Shown here one piece after another: positions 1,782 through 16,382 of a stretch of 62,241 nt of DNA (position 1 is the stretch's first letter; every line of letters begins with the position of its first letter). A model generated the notes under the pieces. It had not been told where the DNA came from, made no database searches, and was given only the letters and a program-made list of their open reading frames with translations. A program made the position numbers and the translations under genes. This DNA is from Gammaproteobacteria bacterium (GTDB lineage Bacteria > Pseudomonadota > Gammaproteobacteria > HK1): assembly GCA_021773635.1 (NCBI GenBank), contig JAJFJV010000003.1:1-62241 (forward strand), in the 5' to 3' direction.

Positions 1782-2399
1782 ATGTCCGTACCTGCAAGAT
1801 CACTCGTCTGGGACCTCCCTACCCGCCTGTTTCACTGGTCTCTGGTGGTGCTGGTTGGCCTCGCCTATATCACCGCTGAAGCGGAAGACACGCTGTTTCG
1901 TCTGCACGAACTAAGTGGATACAGCATCCTCGTGCTGCTTCTGTTTCGCCTGCTGTGGGGTTTCGCCGGCAATCGCCATGCACGCTTCCGGGATTTCGTC
2001 CGCGGCTGGACTCGGGTGCGGACATACACCCGCACGCTGCTGACCGGCCACCCGGAAAATCATGCCGGACATAATCCGCTCGGCGGATGGATGATTCTCG
2101 CCCTGCTCGGCACCCTGGCGACTATCACCGGCAGCGGCTTCTTTGCCCCCGGCGACGGGATGGGGGAGGAATTACACGAGGGGCTTTCCGGACTATTGCT
2201 TGCACTCATCGGCGTACACCTGGCCGGTGTTTTGTTACATTCCCTGCTGACGGGAGAAAACCTGGTCCGCGCCATGTGGACGGGCCGCAAGCAGGTGTCC
2301 TTCGCGCTGCCGGAGGTCAGTAGCGCACCGCTATACCTTCGTGCCGGGTTTTGCCTTGCACTCGCCCTTGGCGCCACCTGGTGGCTGATCACGCCCTGA
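1782..2399 (+). CDS. cytochrome b561-family membrane protein
   Basis: The 205-residue integral membrane protein has four to five hydrophobic helices. It opens with the family motif WDLPTRLFHW (residues 10-19). His residues in or near helices (H18, H42, H132, H146, H153) are candidates for two b-heme ligand pairs. Proteins of this family move electrons across the inner membrane, often from quinol to a periplasmic acceptor. It is first in a plus-strand run with a PepSY protein (3 bases downstream), a response regulator and a histidine kinase. AGGA lies about 10 bases upstream of the ATG. The partner and substrate are not shown by the sequence. Confidence 0.88.
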   Translation: MSVPARSLVWDLPTRLFHWSLVVLVGLAYITAEAEDTLFRLHELSGYSILVLLLFRLLWGFAGNRHARFRDFVRGWTRVRTYTRTLLTGHPENHAGHNPLGGWMILALLGTLATITGSGFFAPGDGMGEELHEGLSGLLLALIGVHLAGVLLHSLLTGENLVRAMWTGRKQVSFALPEVSSAPLYLRAGFCLALALGATWWLITP

Positions 2400-2402
2400 G
2401 CC

Positions 2403-2756
2403 ATGAATATGAAAAAACGCACCTGCTTGCTGCTGTTACTGCCGGCACTACTGATATCGCTGTTCGTGCCGGTGAGGGCGGACGATGATACGGACACGGC
2501 CCGGATGGCGATTCAGTCCGGGGAAATTGCCCCCTTGGGTGAATTATTCTCCCGGCTCGCCAAAGATGCGCCGGGGAAAGTGCTGAAAGTGGAGCTCGAA
2601 CATGAGGGAAAATCGGCACCACATCCGTGGATATATGAGGTCAAGGTGCTCACCCCTGGAGGACGGGTGCTAAAGCTCGAATACGATGCCCGCGACCTGT
2701 CGCTCCTGAAGCTCAAGGGCAAGGGTGAGCAGCACCACGGTCGACCCCATGACTGA
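2403..2756 (+). CDS. exported PepSY-domain protein
   Basis: The 117-residue protein has a signal peptide (about residues 1-26, ending VRA) and a single PepSY domain (about 35-105). The C-terminus carries the short His-containing tail EQHHGRPHD. It starts 3 bases after the cytochrome b561 stop and precedes the response regulator by 15 bases, so it is probably cotranscribed. PepSY proteins encoded next to two-component systems are thought to modulate the sensor or respond to metal stress; a role here as periplasmic accessory of the downstream kinase is inference. Confidence 0.82.
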   Translation: MNMKKRTCLLLLLPALLISLFVPVRADDDTDTARMAIQSGEIAPLGELFSRLAKDAPGKVLKVELEHEGKSAPHPWIYEVKVLTPGGRVLKLEYDARDLSLLKLKGKGEQHHGRPHD

Positions 2757-2771
2757 CGGAGCCTGATAACG

Positions 2772-3431
2772 GTGAGAGTGCTGGTGGTAGAGGATGACCA
2801 CGAGGTCGCACGGCTGGTAAGTGCCGCGCTGGAGCATGGCGGTTACGTGGTGGAGCAGGCCTACGATGGCCGCGAGGGCCATTATCTGGGCAATACCATT
2901 CCCTACGATGCGGTGGTGCTGGATCTGGGCCTGCCGGAACTGGATGGCCTCAGCGTACTGCGTCGCTGGCGCGAAGACGGACGCCGGATGCCGGTGCTGA
3001 TCCTGACCGCCCGGGACAGCTGGCGCGACAAGGTCTCCGGGCTACGTGCCGGGGCCGACGATTATCTCGGCAAGCCCTTTGAACTGGAGGAACTGCTAGC
3101 CCGGGTGGAGGCCCTGATTCGCCGGGCATCGGGACACGCGAGCTCACAAATTCAGTGCGGCCCCCTCATCCTGGATACCCACACCACACGGGTCACCGTG
3201 GACGGCACGCCCGTCGAACTCACCGGCTATGAATATCGCACCCTGTCCTATCTGATGCACCATCCGGGCAAGGTGATCTCGAAAACAGAACTTACTGAGC
3301 ACATCTATCACCAGGACTTCGAACGTGACTCCAACGTCATCGAGGTCTTGATCAACCGGCTGCGCAAGAAACTCGGCACCACACGGATACGCACCCATCG
3401 CGGCAAGGGCTATGAACTGGCTGTCCACTAA
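2772..3431 (+). CDS. OmpR/PhoB-family response regulator
   Basis: The 219-residue protein has a receiver domain (residues 1-115) with the acidic pocket VEDD (6-9), phosphoacceptor D51 in VVLDLGLPELDG and the conserved Lys in LGKPFE. A winged-helix DNA-binding domain (about 125-219) includes VEVLINRLRKK-type recognition-helix sequence. The start is GTG. It overlaps the histidine kinase gene by 20 bases, indicating translational coupling. The closest named groups are PhoP/QseB/PmrA-like regulators. The symmetric TTCAGC repeats at 1696-1741 are its likely target. Confidence 0.92.
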   Translation: MRVLVVEDDHEVARLVSAALEHGGYVVEQAYDGREGHYLGNTIPYDAVVLDLGLPELDGLSVLRRWREDGRRMPVLILTARDSWRDKVSGLRAGADDYLGKPFELEELLARVEALIRRASGHASSQIQCGPLILDTHTTRVTVDGTPVELTGYEYRTLSYLMHHPGKVISKTELTEHIYHQDFERDSNVIEVLINRLRKKLGTTRIRTHRGKGYELAVH

Positions 3432-4758
3432 CTCCCTCGGCCTGCGTTTGCTTGTTCCCTCATTGCTGTGGATCGCGCTCACCCTGGCGATTGCCGGCTT
3501 CCTGCTGACGGCATTGTTTCGGGCCCACATCGAGAGCCATTTTGACGGTGCCCTCAGGGAGCACCTGGAAGAGCTGGTAGCCGCCAGCGAACCCGGGGCG
3601 AAAGGCGATCTGAAACTGACCTGGAGCCCGGCGGATCCACGCTTTAACCGGCCGCGCTCGGGCTGGTACTGGCAAATTCGTGATGGCGAAACAGTATTAC
3701 TGCAATCGCCCTCCAGCCGTTATGAAACCCTCTCGCCACCCTTGCACAGCACGATTCCCCCGCAGACAGCGCTACACTTCACGGGCCCCGGAAATGAGCC
3801 GTTACGGGCGGTCATTCAATCGGTCCAACTGCCGGAATTTCCCCGCGCCTTCAGCTTCCTGGTAAGCGGACCACAAGCCGAGATCCAGCGTGAAGTTCTT
3901 AGCTTTGCTACCCGTCTTGCCGGCACCCTGACGCTGCTCGGACTTGGCCTGATCGGGGCGGTATTGCTCCAGCTCCGCTTCGGGTTGCACCCCTTCCGCA
4001 CCCTGCGCACGGCACTGGCAGACATTCGTGGCGGTTCCCGGGAATTCCTGCCAGAGGACTTTCCACGCGAGGTCAAACCCCTGGTCCAGGAGCTCAACGC
4101 ACTACTGAAACACAATACCGCCCTGGTAGCGCGGGCCAGAACCCAGGCCAGCAACCTCACCCATGCGCTGAAAAACCCGCTGACGGTTATCCGTAATGAG
4201 GCCCGTGAGCTTCCCGGCACAACCGGTAAATACCTGCGGGACCAGGCCGGGAAGATGAGTGACACCATCGACCGTTACCGCGCCCGCGCCCGACTTGCCG
4301 GCACCGGGAACGTGCTGGGTGCCCGCACGTCCTTTCGCGAAACAGTGGATGAACTTTGCTTTTCCTTCGAGCTGCTTTACCGCGACCGCAACCTCCGGAT
4401 TGAGGTAACAAGTGCCGACACGCTCTATTTTCGTGGTGATGCCCAGGACCTGGAAGAATTACTTGGCAACCTGATGGACAACGCCTGCAAGTGGGCCCGG
4501 AGTGAAGTTCGGATCTGTGGCTGGGGCGACGAGGGGCAATTACACATCTGCGTGGATGATGACGGCCCGGGAATTGCCGAGAGGGAACGGCAACAGGCAC
4601 TGCAACGAGGCCATCGACTCGATGAATCGGTCCCGGGTTCGGGACTGGGGCTCGATATCGTGCAGGATATCGTCACCCTTTACAGGGGCAAATTGGCATT
4701 GGAGAAATCCACCCTTGGTGGACTCAAGGTTGAGTTAACTTTGCCCGCTGCTGAATAA
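3412..4758 (+). CDS. membrane sensor histidine kinase
   Basis: The 448-residue kinase has an N-terminal transmembrane helix (about 12-32), a periplasmic sensor region (about 35-160), a second helix (about 165-188), a HAMP-like linker, and a DHp domain with the phosphoacceptor His near residue 251 in THALKNPL. The ATPase domain has N-box NLMDNACKWA, G1 box DDDGPGI and G2 box GSGLGLDIV. The architecture resembles PhoQ/QseC-type sensors. The start ATG overlaps the response regulator end by 20 bases. Its signal is unknown; the PepSY and cytochrome b561 neighbours suggest a metal or redox cue (inference). Confidence 0.93.
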   Translation: MNWLSTNSLGLRLLVPSLLWIALTLAIAGFLLTALFRAHIESHFDGALREHLEELVAASEPGAKGDLKLTWSPADPRFNRPRSGWYWQIRDGETVLLQSPSSRYETLSPPLHSTIPPQTALHFTGPGNEPLRAVIQSVQLPEFPRAFSFLVSGPQAEIQREVLSFATRLAGTLTLLGLGLIGAVLLQLRFGLHPFRTLRTALADIRGGSREFLPEDFPREVKPLVQELNALLKHNTALVARARTQASNLTHALKNPLTVIRNEARELPGTTGKYLRDQAGKMSDTIDRYRARARLAGTGNVLGARTSFRETVDELCFSFELLYRDRNLRIEVTSADTLYFRGDAQDLEELLGNLMDNACKWARSEVRICGWGDEGQLHICVDDDGPGIAERERQQALQRGHRLDESVPGSGLGLDIVQDIVTLYRGKLALEKSTLGGLKVELTLPAAE

Positions 4759-6780: not shown

Positions 6781-6960
6781 CTAGCCGGCAAGGTTGCGGA
6801 TGAATGCAAAGGTGGCGAGCGATAGACCCAGCAAAATGGCAAAGAAAACCAGATTGCGTTGCTTGAAAGGCTGCCCTCGCGTCCGTTCCATCCGCAGCAG
6901 GATCAAATCTGCCACCAGATAAAGTATGACGGCGGTGGCCGTGAAATAGAGAATTTCCAT
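6781..6960 (-). CDS. 59-residue two-helix membrane protein
   Basis: The short frame encodes two transmembrane helices (about residues 4-23 and 36-56) separated by a basic loop (RMERTRGQPFKQR). Its ATG overlaps the heme A synthase stop codon by one base (TGATG), which strongly supports translation and coupling. I do not recognise a family. The position suggests a small accessory of heme A synthase or of the terminal reductase; this is inference. Confidence 0.7.
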   Translation of the reverse strand: MEILYFTATAVILYLVADLILLRMERTRGQPFKQRNLVFFAILLGLSLATFAFIRNLAG

Positions 6961-8084
6961 CAGTTGTCCACACCAAGGGATTTCCACCCTTCCACCACAT
7001 CCCGCTGGCGGAAGCGATGGGTGAGCCACAGGGCTGCGGTCAAGGCGACCAGCGCGCCCGCCTGATGGGCCGCCGCCAGCGACACCGGAATATTGAGCAG
7101 CAAGGTGCCTATCCCAAGGCTTACCTGCGCAAGCAGTGCCGCCATCAGGCAGTGCATGGGCAGGCGAATGGCAAAGGGACAGCTCCGGGGCAGCATCCAC
7201 AGCCAAAAACCGACGGTAGCAATCAGGGTGCCTATAGCCAGCAGGCGGTGATTGAATTGCACCAGGGCGATATTCTCAAAAAAGTTGCGAGCCACCGGCT
7301 CCAGCACGAAGGCGCCGTCGGGAAACCACTGTCCACCCATTAGCGGAAAGGTGTTATAGGCAAAGCCGGCATCAGTTCCCGCCACCAGACCGCCCGCCAG
7401 TGCGGTGTAAAAGATCGCATGTACCAGCCGGAGTGCGGTTTTCCGTGAGCCGGGCCACGGCAGGGTACTGCCCCGCGGCAGGCGCGGGGCAAGCAGGTCC
7501 AGGGCCACCCAAAAAATGTAGGCATAAATAATCAGGGCCAGCCCGAGGTGGGCGGTCAGGCGATAGGCGCTGACATCCGGGCGATCCACCAGCCCGCTCA
7601 TCACCATGTACCAGCCCATCAGGCCCTGCAGCCCGCCGAGGACGAACATCACGATCAGTTTGGGCATCAGCCCGGGCGGTATACGCCGGCGTACCAGGAA
7701 CCACAGGAAGGGCAGGAAAAAGACCAGCCCGATGCTCCGTCCCAACAGCCGGTGCAGATACTCGAACCAGAAGATTGACTGGAAGCCCGCCAGGTTCATA
7801 TCGGAGTTAATCTGCTGGAATTCCGGATACTGCTGATACTTGTGGAAAGCCACTTCCCACTCGGCCTCATTCAGGGGCGGCAGAATTCCCATGATGGGCT
7901 TCCATTCCACCATGGAGAGGCCGGAATGGGTAAGCCGCGTAACCCCGCCCAGCACCACCATGGCAAACACCAGCGCACACACCAGCAGTAGCCAGACGGC
8001 AATGGTGCGCCGTTCCCCCACTCTATCCACCTCACTCACAGCCTGCCGGGCGGCACCCGTCGTATCCTTCATCGCCGTATTCAT
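6960..8084 (-). CDS. ctaA: heme A synthase (COX15/CtaA)
   Basis: The 374-residue, eight-helix membrane protein converts heme O to heme A. COX15-family motifs are visible: VTRLTHSGLSMVEWKP (residues 49-64), FEYLHRLLGR with H111, TAHLGLAL, NHRLLAIG and AHQAGALVAL, giving the four heme-ligating His. I chose the ATG at 8084 because it overlaps the hemerythrin stop codon (ATGA); an upstream start 20 codons earlier would run into that gene. Its presence in the operon suggests that the reductase uses an A-type heme, or that heme A is at least available to it. Confidence 0.93.
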   Translation of the reverse strand: MNTAMKDTTGAARQAVSEVDRVGERRTIAVWLLLVCALVFAMVVLGGVTRLTHSGLSMVEWKPIMGILPPLNEAEWEVAFHKYQQYPEFQQINSDMNLAGFQSIFWFEYLHRLLGRSIGLVFFLPFLWFLVRRRIPPGLMPKLIVMFVLGGLQGLMGWYMVMSGLVDRPDVSAYRLTAHLGLALIIYAYIFWVALDLLAPRLPRGSTLPWPGSRKTALRLVHAIFYTALAGGLVAGTDAGFAYNTFPLMGGQWFPDGAFVLEPVARNFFENIALVQFNHRLLAIGTLIATVGFWLWMLPRSCPFAIRLPMHCLMAALLAQVSLGIGTLLLNIPVSLAAAHQAGALVALTAALWLTHRFRQRDVVEGWKSLGVDN

Positions 8085-8479
8085 GAGCTCTGCTCCTGCT
8101 CGTGCCACCAACTGTCCCAAGTGGAAAAATGACGGCCGAACCAATGGTGTAAACGCTTGGCAAAAGCGGCCTGATCATAGAACTGCCGGGTCTCATAATC
8201 CTCCATAATATCGTGAATATCCTCCAGCAAGCGCTCATGATCATCCTTGTGCCCGGCGTAGCGCGGATACGCCTGTTGCTGCATATATCGTTCCTCTAGC
8301 GCGAAATGAGCGGCCACTTGGGCGTGAATCTCCTCCAGCATCTCTCCCACCGCATCATCGCTATCCGAGTCGGAAAAACGTGTAATCGCCTGGTTAATGA
8401 GCTCGATGAGCTGCCGATGCTCGTGATCCACCCCGGGCACCCCTACCGAATATTCGTCCTTCCATGCCAACCAGCCCAT
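8081..8479 (-). CDS. bacteriohemerythrin
   Basis: The 132-residue single-domain protein carries the full di-iron ligand set at near-canonical spacing: H21, H58, E62 (HFALE), H77 and H81 (HKDDH), H117 and D122 (RHFSTWD). Hemerythrins bind O2 reversibly and some bind NO; they can deliver or scavenge the gas. It has no signal peptide and should be cytoplasmic. It overlaps heme A synthase by 4 bases and lies 23 bases after the unknown membrane-anchored protein. Its place inside a heme-copper reductase operon suggests handling of the reductase's gaseous substrate (inference). Confidence 0.93.
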   Translation of the reverse strand: MGWLAWKDEYSVGVPGVDHEHRQLIELINQAITRFSDSDSDDAVGEMLEEIHAQVAAHFALEERYMQQQAYPRYAGHKDDHERLLEDIHDIMEDYETRQFYDQAAFAKRLHHWFGRHFSTWDSWWHEQEQSS

Positions 8480-8502: not shown

Positions 8503-9006
8503 TCAAAAGAACTGAAATCCTCCTGTTTCGGCCCGAAAATCCACCACAAAATTTTGTCGTGGCCGTAGTTCCACCAGTTTGCTGCCTTCGTAATCAAAGC
8601 CTTCAGCTCGGGCACTATCCCGTAGCCGTGCGGTCACCCGATGCTTTCCCGCAGGCACCACAAAGCGCTGGTACACCGAGCCCGCGCCGTCCTCTGCGAT
8701 ACCGCCCGGTGGCATATCACCGGCAAATAGCAGTTTCTCGTCCAGGTACAGTTCCACCCGGGCCACCACCCGTTGTCGTGGACAATCCATGGTAGTGCGC
8801 ATATTGGGCGCCAGTTGTGCCAGCTCTTCCGCACTGCGTCGACGGCATTCCACCGTTCGCTGGCTGGCATGACTAAAGCTCAGTTTCACCAGCGCCATCT
8901 CCGCATTATGGTAAACATAGGGAGGGGAATCGGAGAAATAACCAATTAGCCCCGCGAATAGCAAGCCGGTGACCAATTGCATCCCGTAACGCAGGACCCT
9001 AGACAT
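8503..9006 (-). CDS. membrane-anchored protein of unknown function in the reductase operon
   Basis: The 167-residue protein has an N-terminal hydrophobic anchor (about residues 8-24) and a soluble domain of mostly beta-strand character, probably periplasmic. Two Cys (C54, C75) could form a disulfide or bind a metal. The segment KLSFSHASQR (41-50) and the C-terminal FVVDFRAETGGFQF are prominent. Its ATG overlaps the end of the cytochrome b fusion by 8 bases, so the two are coupled. I recognise no family. Its place next to maturation genes suggests an assembly or electron-transfer accessory. Confidence 0.75.
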   Translation of the reverse strand: MSRVLRYGMQLVTGLLFAGLIGYFSDSPPYVYHNAEMALVKLSFSHASQRTVECRRRSAEELAQLAPNMRTTMDCPRQRVVARVELYLDEKLLFAGDMPPGGIAEDGAGSVYQRFVVPAGKHRVTARLRDSARAEGFDYEGSKLVELRPRQNFVVDFRAETGGFQFF

Positions 9007-10576
9007 GCTCCGCCCCCCTGGTCACAGGCCCATCTGCGGACCTGGCTGTGAGTTCATCCCCCGTCTCATGCGGGAGACCCGCACGAAAATCTGCCAACTG
9101 TGCGTTTAACCGCGTACCGTGGGCGCAGCCAATCCAGGCCCGTGCAATTCTCTCGCGAGCTACCCGGCGACGCAAAAAGGGATCGCGCTCCCGGGCAATA
9201 CGTTGTTCAGTCCAGTCCAGACCGAGGCGAAAGTGACAATCACCCTCCCGACAACCGGCAAGGAAAATGCCGTCCACATGGCCACGGTTTAGCAGATAGT
9301 CCATAAACGGGGGAGGCAACATGGCTACGCAGGGAAGGCGCACCACTGCAAATCCATCACTTGCCTCAGAGCCGGATAGCTCGGGGCCGGCCTCACAAGC
9401 GTAGACCAGCACGCGTTCATTGCCTTGCAGCGCAGCCGCGGCGGTAACACTCTGTTTCAGCACATCCCGTAAAGGCCGGTGTGGCATATCGATGCCCGGC
9501 GTCATTTCCCTATTCCGCCGAAAGGGTGTGGCTGTGGGGCAGGCACCCGCGCAGATACCACAACTCATGCACAGGGCCGCCTTAACCTCGACCTGATGGC
9601 TAAACGGCAGCCCGTCCTGCCGGGGCTCCAGGGTCAGCGCGGAAAAAGGGCAGTCCTGCACGCAGCGCCCACAACCGTTGCAATTATCGAGATCCACCAC
9701 CGCAGCGGGTTGTCGCCGGGTATGGCCAAGCCACGGGAGGCAGAGCATAAATATGCTGCCAAAAACGAGGACTCCCCACAGGGCAAGACCCGAGATGCGC
9801 TCCAGCAGCGGATAGGCGAGCAGGTAGAACCAGTCAAATCCGATAATCGCGGGAACGGTACCGAGATCCGCCGGCGCCTGGCTGAGCGCCGGCTTGAACA
9901 GGGAGAGCAGCACCAGAACCATAAGGGTACCTACCGCCAGTGCGCGTGGCGGGTTGACCCGGGGGCGCATGTGGCGCTGGATATGCACCCACATGAGAAA
10001 TAGCAAAAACAGCGGCACGCCTATATGGATAAAGACCATGAGGGTGAAAAAGCGGCCACTGAGGGTACCGTCGCGGAGAAAGTTACGCGCGATTGGCTCG
10101 CCGAAGAATGGCAGCGCATCCAGCCATTCAGTGGTAGCAATGGCAATGTACTGGGCGAGCTGGTCCCACACCATCCAGTAGCCGCTGATGCCGCTGGCGT
10201 AGATGAACCAGAGCAGCGGCACACCGCTAACCCAGGCAAACCAGCGTGCGCCACGAAAGCGCCCGAGTATCCATTCCCGCAGAATATGAACCACAACGAT
10301 CAACACCAGCGCATCGGAGGCATAGCGGTGCAGGCTGCGCATCACTCCGCCGGCATACCATTGCGCGTGGGTGATACGCTCCAGCGACTCATAGGCATCG
10401 CTCAAGCCAGTGTCAAAGAAAATGTACAGGTAGATTCCGGTAACCAGCACGATCCAGTAGAAAAACCAGCCTAGGGCACCAAGCTGATTGAGAGGGTTGT
10501 GCCTGGGGGTAAAGACGGCGTCGAAGCTGCTTTCCAGGCGATCCAGCAAACGCCGCATAGGTCCGGTCTTGGTCAT
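8999..10576 (-). CDS. fusion of cytochrome b N-domain, two [4Fe-4S] clusters and MvhD-like domain
   Basis: The 525-residue protein has three parts. Residues 1-285 form a bc1-type cytochrome b membrane domain with two bis-His pairs 14 apart (H83/H97, H184/H198). Residues 295-350 form a ferredoxin domain with C299-C302-C305-C309 and C336-C339-C342-C346. Residues 388-490 resemble the MvhD/FrhD hydrogenase iron-sulfur subunit, including RLPC and LAGCREGDCHFRLG (C394, C416, C442, C447). The start ATG at 10576 lies 5 bases after the SCO stop. The design suggests transfer between quinones and soluble or Fe-S carriers; no Rieske protein is nearby. The function is inferred. Confidence 0.9.
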   Translation of the reverse strand: MTKTGPMRRLLDRLESSFDAVFTPRHNPLNQLGALGWFFYWIVLVTGIYLYIFFDTGLSDAYESLERITHAQWYAGGVMRSLHRYASDALVLIVVVHILREWILGRFRGARWFAWVSGVPLLWFIYASGISGYWMVWDQLAQYIAIATTEWLDALPFFGEPIARNFLRDGTLSGRFFTLMVFIHIGVPLFLLFLMWVHIQRHMRPRVNPPRALAVGTLMVLVLLSLFKPALSQAPADLGTVPAIIGFDWFYLLAYPLLERISGLALWGVLVFGSIFMLCLPWLGHTRRQPAAVVDLDNCNGCGRCVQDCPFSALTLEPRQDGLPFSHQVEVKAALCMSCGICAGACPTATPFRRNREMTPGIDMPHRPLRDVLKQSVTAAAALQGNERVLVYACEAGPELSGSEASDGFAVVRLPCVAMLPPPFMDYLLNRGHVDGIFLAGCREGDCHFRLGLDWTEQRIARERDPFLRRRVARERIARAWIGCAHGTRLNAQLADFRAGLPHETGDELTARSADGPVTRGAEHV

Positions 10577-10580
10577 CGTT

Positions 10581-11423
10581 TCAGGCTCTGCCCTGGCGCC
10601 AGCCATGAACCAGAAAAATGGCGACTGCGCCAAGACTTAGTATGCCCACAAAGATTCCCACGAACAGCGACTTGTCGAAGCGATAGCGGCCGGTGGCCGG
10701 ATCGTAGACAGTACAAAACAGGCGTACCCGATCTATCCAGTCACCGGGTTCCGTCGCCGCCACCGGACTGCCAAAAACCAACTGCTTCAGCGGTTCTACC
10801 ACGTGGGGAACCTCAGGTTCGTTTCCGTAAACCTGGCGATACACACGCCCTGCCCCATCAATAACCGTGGTCTGGGCAAGGTGGTCAAAGCCCTTGGGGG
10901 AAGAAAAATATATAAAACCCACATCACGAACTAAATGTTCGATGGTGTCGGCATCGGCACTCAGGAAATGCCACTGCGGATCCTGAATACCCTGGCCGCT
11001 GGCAAAGACTCGCATGCGCTCCGGGCTATCCACGGCACTGTCAAAGCCAATGGTCAACACCGTAAAACTATTTTCTCCCAGGGCTTCGCGGGCAACATCT
11101 ACGGCGCGCGCGAGGTGGCGGGTAAGCAGCGGGCAAACATGATAGCAGCTGGTATAGATAAGGCTGACCAGCAAAGGCTTTCCGCCAAAGGAGGAAAGGG
11201 ATACGGACTCTCCCTGGCGGTTGCGGAAGGAATACTCACCCAGCTCGCGCCCGATGGCCGCCTGGCTGAAGGCGAGTGCGGATTTTTCATCGAAGGCACT
11301 GCCGGACTCCGCCATTTCCGGCCCGCCGTGGGCCCCCACCCCGGTGCCTGCAAACAGCACTCCGGACACTAAAAGTACGGCAACCACCCGCCGTGGAAAC
11401 TGAATTATCTTCGCTGCGCTCAC
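10581..11423 (-). CDS. SCO1/SenC-family copper chaperone
   Basis: The 280-residue protein has an N-terminal membrane anchor or signal (about 11-30), a thioredoxin-like domain with the copper-binding CxxxC motif (TSCYHVCP, C93 and C97) and a later conserved His in GFDHLAQT, plus an additional C-terminal transmembrane helix (about 253-273). SCO proteins insert copper into the CuA site of oxidases; this suits the CuA subunit in the operon. The start is GTG. A strong hairpin separates it from the catalytic subunit gene upstream, which may lower its expression. senC also accompanies the norSY genes of ammonia oxidisers. Confidence 0.92.
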   Translation of the reverse strand: MSAAKIIQFPRRVVAVLLVSGVLFAGTGVGAHGGPEMAESGSAFDEKSALAFSQAAIGRELGEYSFRNRQGESVSLSSFGGKPLLVSLIYTSCYHVCPLLTRHLARAVDVAREALGENSFTVLTIGFDSAVDSPERMRVFASGQGIQDPQWHFLSADADTIEHLVRDVGFIYFSSPKGFDHLAQTTVIDGAGRVYRQVYGNEPEVPHVVEPLKQLVFGSPVAATEPGDWIDRVRLFCTVYDPATGRYRFDKSLFVGIFVGILSLGAVAIFLVHGWRQGRA

Positions 11424-11550: not shown

Positions 11551-13245
11551 CTAGCCGAGTGGCCAGATTTCAGACAGGTATTTCCAGTTGACGAAGTAGT
11601 AGAGCACAAAAGCGGTCAGAAATACCCCGGCGAGTACCGCGGTGCCGGGAATCTGAACATCTCTGGCACTACCGTATTCACCTACTGCCGCGGCATCCGG
11701 CGAAGTACTCTCGGCGACGGCGGCCGGCTCACTGGAGGTGCGCTTGCCAAAGAGCAGGGAGGCGACGACGACAGCGATATACATCACACCACCGACAGCC
11801 GCCAGGATTGCACTCAGGCCATTCAGGCCCATCATCAGAAACGCAGCCGCGGGATAGTCAAACTGCAGGGCTGAGTCAGCAAAGGTCATGTCCCAGTGTC
11901 GACGCGACACCCCCAAGGTACCCGCCCCCATCATGAACACCGATATCCCCGCCACGCCGATGGCAAACACATAGGGCTGCCATTGCGCCACCTTTGGCCA
12001 GATGATTTCGCGCTGAAAAATCAGTGGCACCAGCAGATAGGTCACTGCCATAAACGTGAGGGTGGTACCCGCCACAACCGTCGCGTGGAAGTGACCGGGC
12101 ACATACAGCGTGTTGTGCATGATGAGGTTGATCTGTTCCACCCCCATCACCACGCCCGAAATACCACCCAGGAAACCGAATAGCAGCAAGGACAGGAAGA
12201 CCCCGGAAAAGGCCGGGTTTCCCCACGGAGCCTTGCGCAACCACTCGAAGAGGCCATTGGTAAAGCCCTTTGCACGCTGCGCCGCCTCGATGGATCCAGG
12301 TACCGTCAGCCCATGGATCATGCTACCGAGCACGGCCAAGTACATGGCATAACTGGTGTTAAAGATCTTCCACTCCGAGGATATCCCGGGCTCCGCCAGC
12401 AGATGATGCGCGCTGGCGAGTTGCAGAAACAGGATATACATCAGAAAGGCCATGCGACTCACCTTTTCCGAGAGTGGCTTCGCCCCCAGAACCACCGCGG
12501 CAACGAGATACCAGATGGAGACGTGAGCCGCCACATTAATCTGCTGAGAGGAGTGCCCCATAGCCCACCAGATGGTCTTGTACACCAATGGATCGATGTG
12601 GCTGATAAAGCCGAGCGACCAGAGGAGTGTGGGAATCAAAATAATTGCACCGGAGGCAATGGTAAACACGGCAATGATGGCGGCGGTTAGCGCCCCGAAG
12701 GTCACCAGTGGAATAGAACCTTCGTAGGTCTTTTCTGCCTTGGCCACCACCAGCGTACCGAAAAATACCCCCACTTGAAGCAAGGCTCCTACCGCAAACA
12801 GGATTACCCCGAGATAAAAATGAGGTTCCGCTTTCATAGGTACGTACGAGGTGAACATAACGCTGGAATCACCTTGCAGTACCGCAACATTAGCCATCAG
12901 CGCACCAACAAGCATCAGGGCAAAACCCGCCCAGGCCACCCTGGGTGTGGCAACGCGCGAACCAAGCAATACTGCGGAGGCAAAGTGCAGCACCGCCATC
13001 TCGAAAAAGATGATCCAAACCAGTAGCACGTCAAATCCATGGGCGGTGAGGGCAAGATAGAACCAGTCCGCGGGCAGGATGTGTACCGCTGGCCAGCGGG
13101 TCAGTGCCACCAACAGACCAAACAAGCCACCGATCAGGAGAAACACCACCGCAACCACCGCATTCGCCTTAATCAGGCTATCGGCCTGGAGGTGAACGCG
13201 CAGCCCGGTGGCGGGACAGGTACGAAATTCTTCAGAGTTTGCCAT
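11551..13245 (-). CDS. heme-copper reductase catalytic subunit lacking the active-site Tyr (sNOR-like, NorY-type?)
   Basis: The 564-residue protein has 12 or more helices. Low-spin heme ligands are H69 and H387, the high-spin heme ligand is H385 (PGHFH), and CuB ligands are H231 (WAMGHSSQQ), H280 and H281. In oxygen reductases of types A and B the residue four after the first CuB ligand is the cross-linked Tyr (HPxxY); here it is Q235. The cbb3-type alternative Tyr in helix VII, about six residues before HH, is also absent (L274). Missing this Tyr is typical of NO reductases. With CuA subunit and SCO, the gene set resembles norSY-senC. An annotation as ba3-type oxidase is the alternative. AGGAG precedes the ATG by 6 bases. 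Confidence 0.85.
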   Translation of the reverse strand: MANSEEFRTCPATGLRVHLQADSLIKANAVVAVVFLLIGGLFGLLVALTRWPAVHILPADWFYLALTAHGFDVLLVWIIFFEMAVLHFASAVLLGSRVATPRVAWAGFALMLVGALMANVAVLQGDSSVMFTSYVPMKAEPHFYLGVILFAVGALLQVGVFFGTLVVAKAEKTYEGSIPLVTFGALTAAIIAVFTIASGAIILIPTLLWSLGFISHIDPLVYKTIWWAMGHSSQQINVAAHVSIWYLVAAVVLGAKPLSEKVSRMAFLMYILFLQLASAHHLLAEPGISSEWKIFNTSYAMYLAVLGSMIHGLTVPGSIEAAQRAKGFTNGLFEWLRKAPWGNPAFSGVFLSLLLFGFLGGISGVVMGVEQINLIMHNTLYVPGHFHATVVAGTTLTFMAVTYLLVPLIFQREIIWPKVAQWQPYVFAIGVAGISVFMMGAGTLGVSRRHWDMTFADSALQFDYPAAAFLMMGLNGLSAILAAVGGVMYIAVVVASLLFGKRTSSEPAAVAESTSPDAAAVGEYGSARDVQIPGTAVLAGVFLTAFVLYYFVNWKYLSEIWPLG

Positions 13246-13254
13246 CGACCGCTC

Positions 13255-13788
13255 CTATTCCTTGACGTAGATCTTGCCCACCATGGTGTGGTGGCCGATC
13301 CCGCAGAATTCATTACAGACCACACTGAATTCCCCGGACGCATTCGGGGTCATCTGGGTTACAAGTTCATAACCCGGGTGGACCGACAGATTCATGTTGG
13401 TGGGCTGGAGCGAAAAACCATGCTGCCAGTCCATAGAAGAAAGGTGCATGCGATAACTCTGGTCCTTTTTCAGTTCCAGAATCGGCCACCACTGCCAAAG
13501 CCTTGCGATGAGATACACGTCACTGCCAGGCGGCGGACTCACCACCGGAAAGCCGGCCTCCTCGCGCACCGTGTATTTCGCGGTCATCGCCTGGGCCTTC
13601 TCGGCGAAGGCCTCGGGGGTAATCTTGTAGGCCTCGTTGGAGAGATTTTGCTGTCCCGCCCCGTGCCAGTAAATCATCATGAAGAACATCACCAGGCCCC
13701 AGACAAAGGCGATGAGGATCCAGATGAGTTCTACCCTGGCGATGGGTTCCTTCCACCACAGACGATTGCTTGGAGGGCTCATGGCCAT
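13255..13788 (-). CDS. heme-copper reductase subunit II with CuA site (NorS-like?)
   Basis: The 177-residue protein has one N-terminal transmembrane helix (about 20-40) and a periplasmic cupredoxin domain. The CuA motif is complete: H123 (DWQHGF), then C158, E160, C162, H166 and M169 in CNEFCGIGHHTM. The site accepts electrons from cytochrome c or another periplasmic donor. The N-terminal single helix and short length resemble type-B (ba3) subunit II. The gene is 9 bases upstream of the catalytic subunit and 11 bases after the small subunit. GGAG lies 8 bases before the start. Confidence 0.92.
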   Translation of the reverse strand: MAMSPPSNRLWWKEPIARVELIWILIAFVWGLVMFFMMIYWHGAGQQNLSNEAYKITPEAFAEKAQAMTAKYTVREEAGFPVVSPPPGSDVYLIARLWQWWPILELKKDQSYRMHLSSMDWQHGFSLQPTNMNLSVHPGYELVTQMTPNASGEFSVVCNEFCGIGHHTMVGKIYVKE

Positions 13789-13799
13789 AACGGTATCTC

Positions 13800-13997
13800 C
13801 TATTTGGCGACGGGAATCTGGACAATTTCCATAATTCCCCAGACGAGATAGAAGATAGTGGGTACCGCAACTCCCAACGCCAGCAGAGCAAAGGGGTTAT
13901 CGAGCAGCCGCTGCATGAAGGGAATAGGTTCTTCCCCTCCACCACCGGTGGGTTGTACGCCAGGCGTGCCCGCCTGTTCCTGTGTGGACTCAGTCAT
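13800..13997 (-). CDS. single-helix small subunit of the heme-copper reductase
   Basis: The 65-residue protein has a soluble Gly/Pro/Glu-rich N-terminus (1-25), an amphipathic stretch (FMQRLLDNP) and one transmembrane helix (about 36-58). It is the first gene of the operon and has the strongest ribosome binding site of the group (GGGAGGAG, 5 bases before the ATG). Small single-helix subunits such as subunit IIa accompany type-B heme-copper enzymes. Assignment rests on position and topology; the sequence itself is not diagnostic. Confidence 0.72.
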   Translation of the reverse strand: MTESTQEQAGTPGVQPTGGGGEEPIPFMQRLLDNPFALLALGVAVPTIFYLVWGIMEIVQIPVAK

Positions 13998-14189: not shown

Positions 14190-16382
14190 CTACCCACCGG
14201 AACCAGCACCATCCACCTCCGTCTGGAGCGTCAGACTCCAGGGTGGACGCCCTGGGTGCTGACGTTCCCGATATTGCCGCAAGCTGAAATTAAATTGTGG
14301 GCTCTCTCCGAGCAGGTCACTCAGAACCATTGCTGATATCCCAAGCACGGTACATTTTTCCTTCGCCTCCAGCCGTTGGGGTCCGGGTGGCGCGTGAGGC
14401 TTAAGCCCCGCCTCATCACCCACTCCAAGCAACTCCCCGCTGGCCACATCGGCGGCGCTGCCCGCGGCGATAATCGCCCACCAGCCACCGGCATCGTCGA
14501 GCCGCATGACTTGCCCCGGCTCGAGACTACGCTGCTCTACGATGGCCGACAGGGCGTCGATCACCGTGGTACTAAGCCCGGCAAACTGGGGTAATGCGGA
14601 GATGGTCTCGCGCAGACCCCATTGCGCCAGCAAGGCCGCCTTGAGACCCCGCTTTTCAATGAAGATGCCAAAGGAATCCTCACGAAATTCACACACCGTT
14701 ACCGGGGTCGCCGCCACCACACTGGCATTGCGTTTTTCGCTACCGGTCACCACCGCCATTTCGCCAATAAAATCCCCGGCCTCACGGGTTGCCAGTACGC
14801 GTAGCTGCTCACCATCGTGGTGGATCACCTGGCAATGGCCCGTCAGTATGAGCAGCACATTCCCGCGGGTCTCCCAACCCTGCTTGAGAATCACATCATC
14901 GGTATTGAAATGGCGAATAGCGGTATCGGCAAACAGGCTGCTCAACCAGCGCCCGGAAAGTGCCTCGCCAAAGTTTTCCATCAGTAACTCGATGGCGCGC
15001 ATGGTATAGAGATCTTTACCACCCTCCAGGATGGTATAGCGCTTCCCCGAACTCGCCAGCGAGAAAGTGGCGTTATAACGATTCGGCAGGCGATCCACGT
15101 GCACAAAAACCACGCGTTCAGCCTCGGATTTGAGGGCATCCGCAGGATCACCGTGGATCAGGCCCATACCCCCGTCGGCCACCAGCATATCGAAGGGTGC
15201 GTGGTACAGATGCTTGAGATAGGCCTCGGCATCCGGGCGGATCAGTTGCTCGGCCCGCATTTGCTCGATTTCGGCAAAACTCTGATTGTCTCCCACCACA
15301 CAGATTCTGTGTGCGCGTCCATCGCGCGAAACTGAAAAGGTGGCTCCGATGGTAGGCACGCTGTGAACCGTGCAGTGGGCATCGATAGTCAGCCCGTAAT
15401 AACCAAAGGGTCGCCCGGGCATGATCTCCATGAACTTGAAGTGTTCCTTGACCGCATCCACCGCCCAGCCAAGACCCAGGGCAAGCTTTTGCATCGCCAT
15501 TTCATAGATGGCCCGGGTGGTAATAACCTCCACCCGGTGTGACATCTGCATCAGCGGCAACATGCTGCAATGGTCATCGTGCAAATGGCTGAGAAACAGG
15601 GCGCGAATCTGGTTTCTTGAGATTCCGCGCGCACGCAGATGCCAGTCCACAAAGGGAATGGAGTCGATGAGGATGTACCAGCCGTTGAAACAAAGCACCA
15701 GGCCCGTGGATGCCTCTTCAGGGGTAAAGCCGGAGGCACCGCCCAGGACGTCAATACCAAACTTGGACAACGGCCCCGGAAGATTATCCGCATAGACCTC
15801 GTAGGGCGGGCGGATTTCCCCGGTCCCGTTGAGGTCCACCTCAACATTCTCGGCCGCGGTGGTCAGCACGAAGCGATCCGTTTCCAGACGCTCGATGCTA
15901 TAGCCATCCAATTCGACGCGGTTATCACGAAACGGAATGGCTTCGATGAAGCTCTCTACCGGGCGCACCGCACCGGCATCATCCTTGAGGGCGAAAAAAT
16001 CGCTCGCATTGAGCCATTCCTCCCGCATCTTTGTCTCGGTATTCCAGGCCTCCAGCTCCTCGCGAGAGGGGCCCAGCAAGGTAAGGCGCAACTGCTCCAG
16101 GGCATGGGCCAGGTGATCGGGTTCACCAATGAGTTTCAGGCGGCGGCCGCTTTTCAGGCCATCGCCAAAAAACAGGAACTGGTAGAGGGGAAATTCCAGG
16201 TTATTAAGCAATACCCCGGAACGCTCGCGCACATCCGGCAGGACCATGGCATCCAGCGGGCCGGCACCAGACTTGATCAGGGCCTTGAGAACTTCCGGAG
16301 GCTGGCCAAACAAAACCGTGTGCTCCCCCACCCGCACAGCTCGACAACCCTCCATGGGGGTTGTCAGTTCCAACTCGGACAT
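14190..16382 (-). CDS. metallo-beta-lactamase protein with one or two cyclic-nucleotide-binding domains
   Basis: The 730-residue cytoplasmic protein has a unique N-terminal region (1-200), a metallo-beta-lactamase domain (about 205-440) with HLHDDH (H266, H268, D270, H271), H340, D365 (GDN) and H410 or H428, then a cNMP-binding domain (about 485-600) with phosphate-cassette-like GEMAVVTGSEKRNAS and R551. A second, degenerate cNMP-like domain covers about 605-705. The domain order suggests an effector-gated hydrolase or a di-metal gas or redox sensor; neither is shown. GGGAG precedes the ATG by about 6 bases. It lies upstream of the reductase operon on the same strand and 189 bases after the UspA gene. 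Confidence 0.82.
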   Translation of the reverse strand: MSELELTTPMEGCRAVRVGEHTVLFGQPPEVLKALIKSGAGPLDAMVLPDVRERSGVLLNNLEFPLYQFLFFGDGLKSGRRLKLIGEPDHLAHALEQLRLTLLGPSREELEAWNTETKMREEWLNASDFFALKDDAGAVRPVESFIEAIPFRDNRVELDGYSIERLETDRFVLTTAAENVEVDLNGTGEIRPPYEVYADNLPGPLSKFGIDVLGGASGFTPEEASTGLVLCFNGWYILIDSIPFVDWHLRARGISRNQIRALFLSHLHDDHCSMLPLMQMSHRVEVITTRAIYEMAMQKLALGLGWAVDAVKEHFKFMEIMPGRPFGYYGLTIDAHCTVHSVPTIGATFSVSRDGRAHRICVVGDNQSFAEIEQMRAEQLIRPDAEAYLKHLYHAPFDMLVADGGMGLIHGDPADALKSEAERVVFVHVDRLPNRYNATFSLASSGKRYTILEGGKDLYTMRAIELLMENFGEALSGRWLSSLFADTAIRHFNTDDVILKQGWETRGNVLLILTGHCQVIHHDGEQLRVLATREAGDFIGEMAVVTGSEKRNASVVAATPVTVCEFREDSFGIFIEKRGLKAALLAQWGLRETISALPQFAGLSTTVIDALSAIVEQRSLEPGQVMRLDDAGGWWAIIAAGSAADVASGELLGVGDEAGLKPHAPPGPQRLEAKEKCTVLGISAMVLSDLLGESPQFNFSLRQYRERQHPGRPPWSLTLQTEVDGAGSGG

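Follow-up and report, generated by a model that had tools for sequence, protein, structure and literature searches.

The eNOR family of nitric oxide (NO) reductases reportedly goes back to Hemp and Gennis (2008) and Murali et al. (2024), and its biochemically characterised member is presumably the enzyme from Rhodothermus marinus. To our knowledge, neither cNOR nor qNOR possesses a cupredoxin subunit. According to an excerpt of PMC11388526, an eNOR has been characterised biochemically and reduces NO. In the part of PMC8756737 that holds Table A4, the families are distinguished by one active-site residue, namely Asn in sNOR, Gln in eNOR, Asp in gNOR, Asn in CuANor, Glu in cNOR and qNOR, and Tyr in the oxygen (O2) reductases. 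Excerpts of the same paper assign putative eNORs to Alpha-, Beta-, Gamma-, and Deltaproteobacteria, Chloroflexi, and Halobacteria, state that these enzymes are often mislabelled as cytochrome c oxidase, and contain a Thermus entry in the eNOR alignment, either as an eNOR or as an outgroup. In Ardenticatena, an eNOR is reportedly encoded in an operon with nirK (PMC4653789).

The window analysed here, i.e., the whole stretch of 62,241 nucleotides from a member of the Gammaproteobacteria (contig JAJFJV010000003.1), very probably encodes a CuA-bearing NO reductase of this family, as predicted from its sequence. With the eNOR family, as far as the excerpts describe it, the locus shares the Gln at the Tyr position, three His ligands of CuB, a cupredoxin subunit II, and a B-type-like sequence. 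On the minus strand, the genes for a 65-aa transmembrane (TM) protein, subunit II, subunit I, SCO, a cytochrome b-ferredoxin-FlpD fusion, the protein P0005, a haemerythrin, and CtaA were found in this order, with one further gene upstream:

14190 to 16382, minus strand: metallo-beta-lactamase domain joined to a cNMP-binding domain (upstream gene; the near-copy L015 is the one locus among 83 that has it)
13800 to 13997, minus strand: unannotated 65-aa single-TM protein (LLDNPF...YLxWGxxEIxxIP), ending 11 bases before subunit II
13255 to 13788, minus strand: subunit II, a cupredoxin with the CuA-type ligands H123, C158, E160, C162, H166, and M169 (conservation of each across 80 homologues, 97% or more)
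11551 to 13245, minus strand: subunit I, predicted eNOR-type haem-copper reductase of 564 aa (P0001; translation, family searches, alignments, and trees)
12541 to 12558, minus strand: active-site motif G230-H231-S-S-Q-Q235 of subunit I (coordinates computed from residue numbers)
10581 to 11423, minus strand: SCO/SenC copper chaperone with C93, C97, and H181 (family search, conserved ligands)
8999 to 10633, minus strand: fusion of cytochrome b (two His pairs), 2x[4Fe-4S] ferredoxin, and FlpD (family search, conserved ligands)
8503 to 9006, minus strand: P0005, unannotated, with an N-terminal TM anchor and a beta-strand domain (C54 and C75 invariant in alignment A2)
8081 to 8479, minus strand: bacteriohaemerythrin with conserved di-iron ligands (family search)
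6960 to 8144, minus strand: haem A synthase CtaA (encoded close to the operon at 5 of 83 loci, at three of them on the same strand)

Among the 83 loci with subunit I, subunit II was present in 83, SCO in 79, the fusion in 75, and P0005 in 69, and a haemerythrin gene was found on the same strand in 64 and on the other strand in two. Most of the misses fell on the Thermus and Thermomicrobium loci or on places where a contig ends; despite full flanks, P0005 was lacking at L045, and haemerythrin at L076 and L088. A short frame comparable to the 65-aa gene preceded subunit II in all 83 loci with sufficient upstream sequence, including those of Thermus and Thermomicrobium; the original prediction makes no mention of this small protein. 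On a Defluviimonas plasmid the same order was found with a haem O synthase gene inserted, and a haem A or O synthase gene was close by in some loci. Conservation across homologues indicated that the redox ligands were kept, namely those of CuA, the two b-haem His pairs, the eight ferredoxin Cys, the four FlpD Cys, and the haemerythrin ligands. Translation of the fusion probably begins at an ATG located some 20 or 26 codons inside the frame. CtaA and the metallo-beta-lactamase/cNMP gene were set aside as operon members, with little synteny support for either; the single occurrence of the latter among the 83 loci makes its membership doubtful. This gene, 0.2 kb upstream of the small-subunit gene, could code for a gas or redox sensor.

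The gene for subunit I was one complete open frame with an ATG start. In its translation, the six metal-ligating His named in the original prediction (H69, H231, H280, H281, H385, and H387) were all found in place, aligning with H72, H233, H282, H283, H384, and H386 of Thermus ba3. The proposed substitution of Gln for the cross-linked Tyr was borne out as well, the helix-VI motif being GHSSQQ with Q235 on ba3 Tyr237. Moreover, S233, Q234, and Q235 were constant in all 45 rows of alignment A1 and in 86 of 87 clade rows, i.e., all those covering them (near-copies and one fragment included), indicating that Q235 is not a sequencing accident. Residues H69, E82, H231, H280, H281, H385, and H387 were likewise unchanged in the covering rows among these 87. 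The helix-VII Tyr of the cbb3 (C-type) enzymes, located six residues before the HH pair, was missing, as had been claimed; its column contained L274 in the window, Leu in 58 and Ile in three of the 61 clade rows, and Tyr in the single cbb3 row. Another Tyr of helix VII, Y270 (codon 12436-12438, minus strand), was Tyr in all 61 rows of the Gln clade and in no other aligned row, ten residues before H280 and one turn past the cbb3 Tyr position. Judging from the alignment, no other Tyr would reach the active site, with the possible exception of this invariant Y270.

By sequence, the nearest solved relatives were Thermus ba3 and 7deg, both of which were B-type in the tree. The structure predicted for subunit I (pLDDT 75, pTM 0.81, with low confidence near residues 372-382) matched ba3 best, with a TM-score of 0.73-0.77 by query length and an rmsd of 7-9 Å; it was used for confirmation of the fold, side-chain distances not being taken from it. 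Identity to the Thermus thermophilus ba3 enzyme, a B-type O2 reductase, was 32% over the aligned segment, the fold, the haem and CuB ligands, and part of the K-path being shared. In contrast, ba3 Tyr237 is replaced by Gln, Y133 by Phe (Phe or Met in the clade), Y244 by Val, and T312 by His (H311). Concerning the K-path and the single proton channel expected of an eNOR, Y246, matching ba3 Y248, and S308 were present in 61 of 61 clade rows, and position 314 was Thr in 52 and Ser in nine.

Two further positions of subunit I were of interest. Residue E82 (codon 13000-13002, minus strand) is situated in helix II, 13 residues past the haem ligand H69; Glu fills this column in every one of the 61 Gln-clade rows and is absent there from all aligned B-type, A-type, sNOR, cNOR, and HH-less rows, the single cbb3 row having Glu too. 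It is possibly a proton-path residue. The low-spin haem ligand H387 of the window corresponded to Lys (GHFK) in both Thermus thermophilus plasmid proteins (L126:8983-10665 and L127:8983-10668), and this His was kept in the remaining 59 of the 61 clade rows.

Regarding family placement, all 61 clade rows have Gln four positions past the first CuB ligand, compared with Tyr in all 18 B-type and all three A-type rows, Asn in both NorY-type rows, and Glu in all three cNOR rows. Both Q235 and the Gln of the whole clade thus agree with the eNOR signature in the excerpted table of PMC8756737, and the other eNOR features, i.e., the haem and CuB ligands and a cupredoxin subunit II directly upstream, were present too. 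The predicted reaction is that of cNOR and qNOR, from which the enzyme differs by the Glu of the three cNOR rows (no qNOR row being included) and by an identity of 24% to one cNOR row. A scan of contigs of named genomes with P0001 yielded 529 stretches encoding a relative; the 80 best of these were retained. In the first tree, which gave long-branch warnings (among others for L128 with Thermus and for sNOR with A-type), the 61 rows of the Gln clade formed one side of a branch with an SH-aLRT of 96; in the careful tree, with 19 of the 61 rows, the clade obtained 100/100. It includes named Thermus and Thermomicrobium proteins whose records do not carry the eNOR name; the Thermus plasmid and Thermomicrobium roseum members are 47-49% identical to the window protein and display the motif HGAQQ. 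The trees were built without the Rhodothermus marinus and Ardenticatena eNORs and contain no row that is an eNOR of proven activity, so that the window protein is linked to this family via the published residue signature and not via the tree. Six plasmid relatives (L161-L166) were dismissed as eNOR candidates, all six carrying Tyr, and were used as B-type rows. As had been anticipated, automatic annotation pointed to a cytochrome c oxidase: COX1 was the sole Pfam family matched, and the listed plasmid relatives were named cbb3-type or b(o/a)3-type oxidase. The best NCBIfam model was CtaD, scoring 61.7 bits versus a cut-off of 670.75.

An association with denitrification genes was found within the class. 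A clade member was carried by 33 of the 369 genomes sampled, in three of them as fragments. At E ≤ 1e-140, taken here as NirS grade, cd1-family proteins were found in 21 of the 33 carriers versus 19 of the 336 other genomes, and at E ≤ 1e-110, which admits NirF and NirN, in 30 of 33 versus 42 of 336; both cuts were chosen after the table had been seen, and the co-occurrence genomes are not independent (24 families, with 18 at the strict and 22 at the lax cut). In at least 13 carriers, a cd1-family gene lay on the same contig at a distance of 20 kb or less, and in 11 of the 13 it was of NirS grade. In a second set, a NirS-query match lay within the flank at 12 of 83 loci, always on the other strand. 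On one Thermus plasmid, the relative has nirS and an Rrf2 regulator gene in its vicinity; the annotation of the second Thermus stretch (L126) shows no nirS. In addition, FNR/DNR-type boxes occurred 231-286 bases upstream of subunit II at 24 of 84 loci with at most one mismatch, ten of them exact, versus 18 and 0, respectively, of 1680 in the shuffled control. No such box was found upstream of the window operon, where the best candidate had three mismatches, so that the idea of FNR-type control holds for relatives but not for the window. Similarly, no nitrite reductase was found among the family-searched genes around the window operon.

The own genome of the window contained no NirS-grade protein (best match 2.4e-11), and neither did that of its genus-mate G002; no AMO match was found in the own genome, nor NosZ with the one model tried. 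It did encode a NirK-like copper protein of 325 aa (L167) with readable copper motifs, closest to PDB 4kns (364.6 bits; 'Multicopper oxidase type 1'), which we take to be Nitrosomonas europaea NirK; its score of 166.5 bits lay below the family cut-off of 296.3. A match of equal strength was found in both genus-mates searched, one of which (G001) lacks an eNOR. The COX1 family was represented by subunit I and one A-type oxidase, with no third match. Read most simply, nitrite would be reduced via NO to N2O alongside respiration by an ordinary O2 oxidase and, given the NirK-like protein and the lack of a NosZ match, the organism probably stops at N2O. On contig C9, a second multicopper oxidase gene and a frame of 234 aa in which c-type haem motifs can be read by eye lie upstream of the NirK-like gene; the copper-protein pair (L167/L168) also had matches in both genus-mates.

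The original prediction of a possible sNOR-type NO reductase was right about the reaction, which is well supported by the Gln signature, the clade, and the co-occurrence, and wrong about the sNOR name. That the window protein is a NorY as in ammonia oxidisers is barely credible. A B-type-like subunit I, a CuA subunit II, and SCO/SenC do occur in the order known from sNOR, and the loss of Tyr and the two-subunit type with a cupredoxin and an adjoining SCO are common to both. However, this layout is not diagnostic of sNOR, as it was also found at the Tyr-bearing oxidase locus L165, and the next genes downstream differ. NorY-type proteins came from a COX1-family search of 14 genomes of a probable ammonia-oxidiser family: those of G408 and G391 (L158 and L160; 507 and 500 aa) have GHVFIN, hence Asn. 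By eye, a cupredoxin subunit II precedes and SCO and a membrane protein follow subunit I at these loci, which presumably represents the norSY-senC-orf1 pattern; a multihaem gene near the G391 locus is, by eye, hydroxylamine dehydrogenase, and the genome family, which includes G337 with three AMO matches, probably consists of ammonia oxidisers. The window protein, with Gln instead of Asn, is 27-28% identical to these proteins, and the Gln clade and the NorY pair (the two rows that represent sNOR) stood apart in both trees; their forced union cost 16.7 log units and was modestly rejected (AU p 0.038). Furthermore, searching 100 genomes of this probable ammonia-oxidiser family with P0001 yielded nothing at 1e-10, no known match serving as control in that search. 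Membership of sNOR was therefore rejected.

An O2 reductase serving as microaerobic terminal oxidase without the cross-linked Tyr, perhaps by means of another one such as Y270, would accord with the B-type fold and nearest solved relatives, with the conserved CuA and partial K-path, and with the clade-specific invariance of Y270; according to an excerpt of PMC6967387, another Tyr-less family, sNOR, has been proposed to act primarily on O2. It is nevertheless very improbable, given a cross-linked Tyr in every B-type and A-type row and in none of the clade rows, a Y270 that is one turn off the cbb3 Tyr position, the strong link of the clade to cd1 genes, and the separate A-type oxidase of the own genome. 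Somewhat less unlikely is that NO is reduced mainly for detoxification, aided by haemerythrin, instead of for respiration. The conserved neighbouring haemerythrin gene and the lack of a NosZ match in the own genome are in line with such a role, but a multi-gene redox operon that is near nir genes in many relatives suggests respiration; in any case, detoxification competes with the respiratory role and not with the chemistry. Membership of the known eNOR family is well supported for the enzyme itself.

The part worth following is the dedicated partner module, the enzyme type itself being known. P0005 had no Pfam or NCBIfam match, and its confident model (pLDDT 94) had no PDB fold match at E ≤ 1e-3. 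A P0005 profile, built from eNOR loci and cut at 1e-6, matched 34 of the 369 class genomes, all at 3e-45 or below. These comprised all but one of the 33 carriers (32) and two of the 336 others (G115 and G230, 73% and 77% complete, respectively). In the remaining carrier, G278, the eNOR gene is situated at a contig end. Similarly, the fusion was found at E ≤ 1e-60 in 24 of 303 genomes, namely 23 carriers and G230. Confined almost entirely to carriers, P0005 and the fusion are therefore dedicated to this NO reductase, at least in this class, and the partner genes, P0005 in particular, are specific markers. Unlike the proteobacterial loci, the three Thermus and Thermomicrobium genes had no fusion, anchored beta protein, or haemerythrin beside them, which suggests that P0005 and the fusion may not be needed for the basic reaction. 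An electron path linked to quinone or ferredoxin via the partners can be envisaged. Speculatively, and with more doubt than confidence, the proteobacterial eNOR might be the core of a membrane assembly with the 65-aa TM subunit, the fusion, P0005, and haemerythrin, rather than a two-subunit enzyme, in which the fusion would link quinone and a cytoplasmic ferredoxin/thiol pool to NO reduction or would gate it; if so, this denitrification complex would be wired unlike every known NO reductase. No description of the eNOR partner genes was found in the excerpts of the literature searched, a search that did not extend to Murali et al. 2024, and no paper in the literature searched joined eNOR, hemerythrin, and nitric oxide reductase; FlpD occurred in an excerpt of one paper as an item in a domain list, not placed beside eNOR. 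The partner genes provide the testable idea that NO reduction is tied to other electron pools.

As to the mechanism, electrons, probably donated by a cytochrome c, would enter at CuA of subunit II and pass via the low-spin haem (H69/H387) to the site formed by the high-spin haem (H385) and CuB (H231/H280/H281), where two NO would be reduced to N2O and water. Gln235 would occupy the place of the redox-active Tyr by which O2 reductases break the O-O bond, and protons would probably arrive via a remnant K-path (Y246, S308, H311, and T314). SCO may load copper, and the 65-aa TM protein probably serves as a small subunit with a structural role. The NirK-like protein encoded elsewhere would supply the NO, with N2O as the likely end product. 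When enzymes of this type are annotated as cytochrome c oxidases, the capacity to produce N2O, a greenhouse gas, is missed, which concerns the 33 of 369 class genomes carrying the clade; the residue test tells eNOR (Gln) from sNOR (Asn) and O2 reductases (Tyr).

Next to the Gln clade, the tree contained a COX1-family sister clade on a long branch (L059:844-2274, L040:2269-3657, L062:1859-3232, L094:518-1897, L077:1926-3377, L014, L188, L189, and L190), of which no match was found in the window's genome. These proteins retain the His ligands of the haems and the His of helix VI (HxxQF, in one case HxxQY) and lack the CuB His pair in nine of nine rows, and in their genomes the genes are separated from the eNOR operon by a few kb; possibly, they are copper-less haem proteins acting as a sensor or an assembly factor. 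Lastly, the plus strand of the window encodes at 1782-4758, by eye, a cytochrome b561-like protein, after which come genes for a PepSY-like protein of small size, a response regulator, and a histidine kinase.
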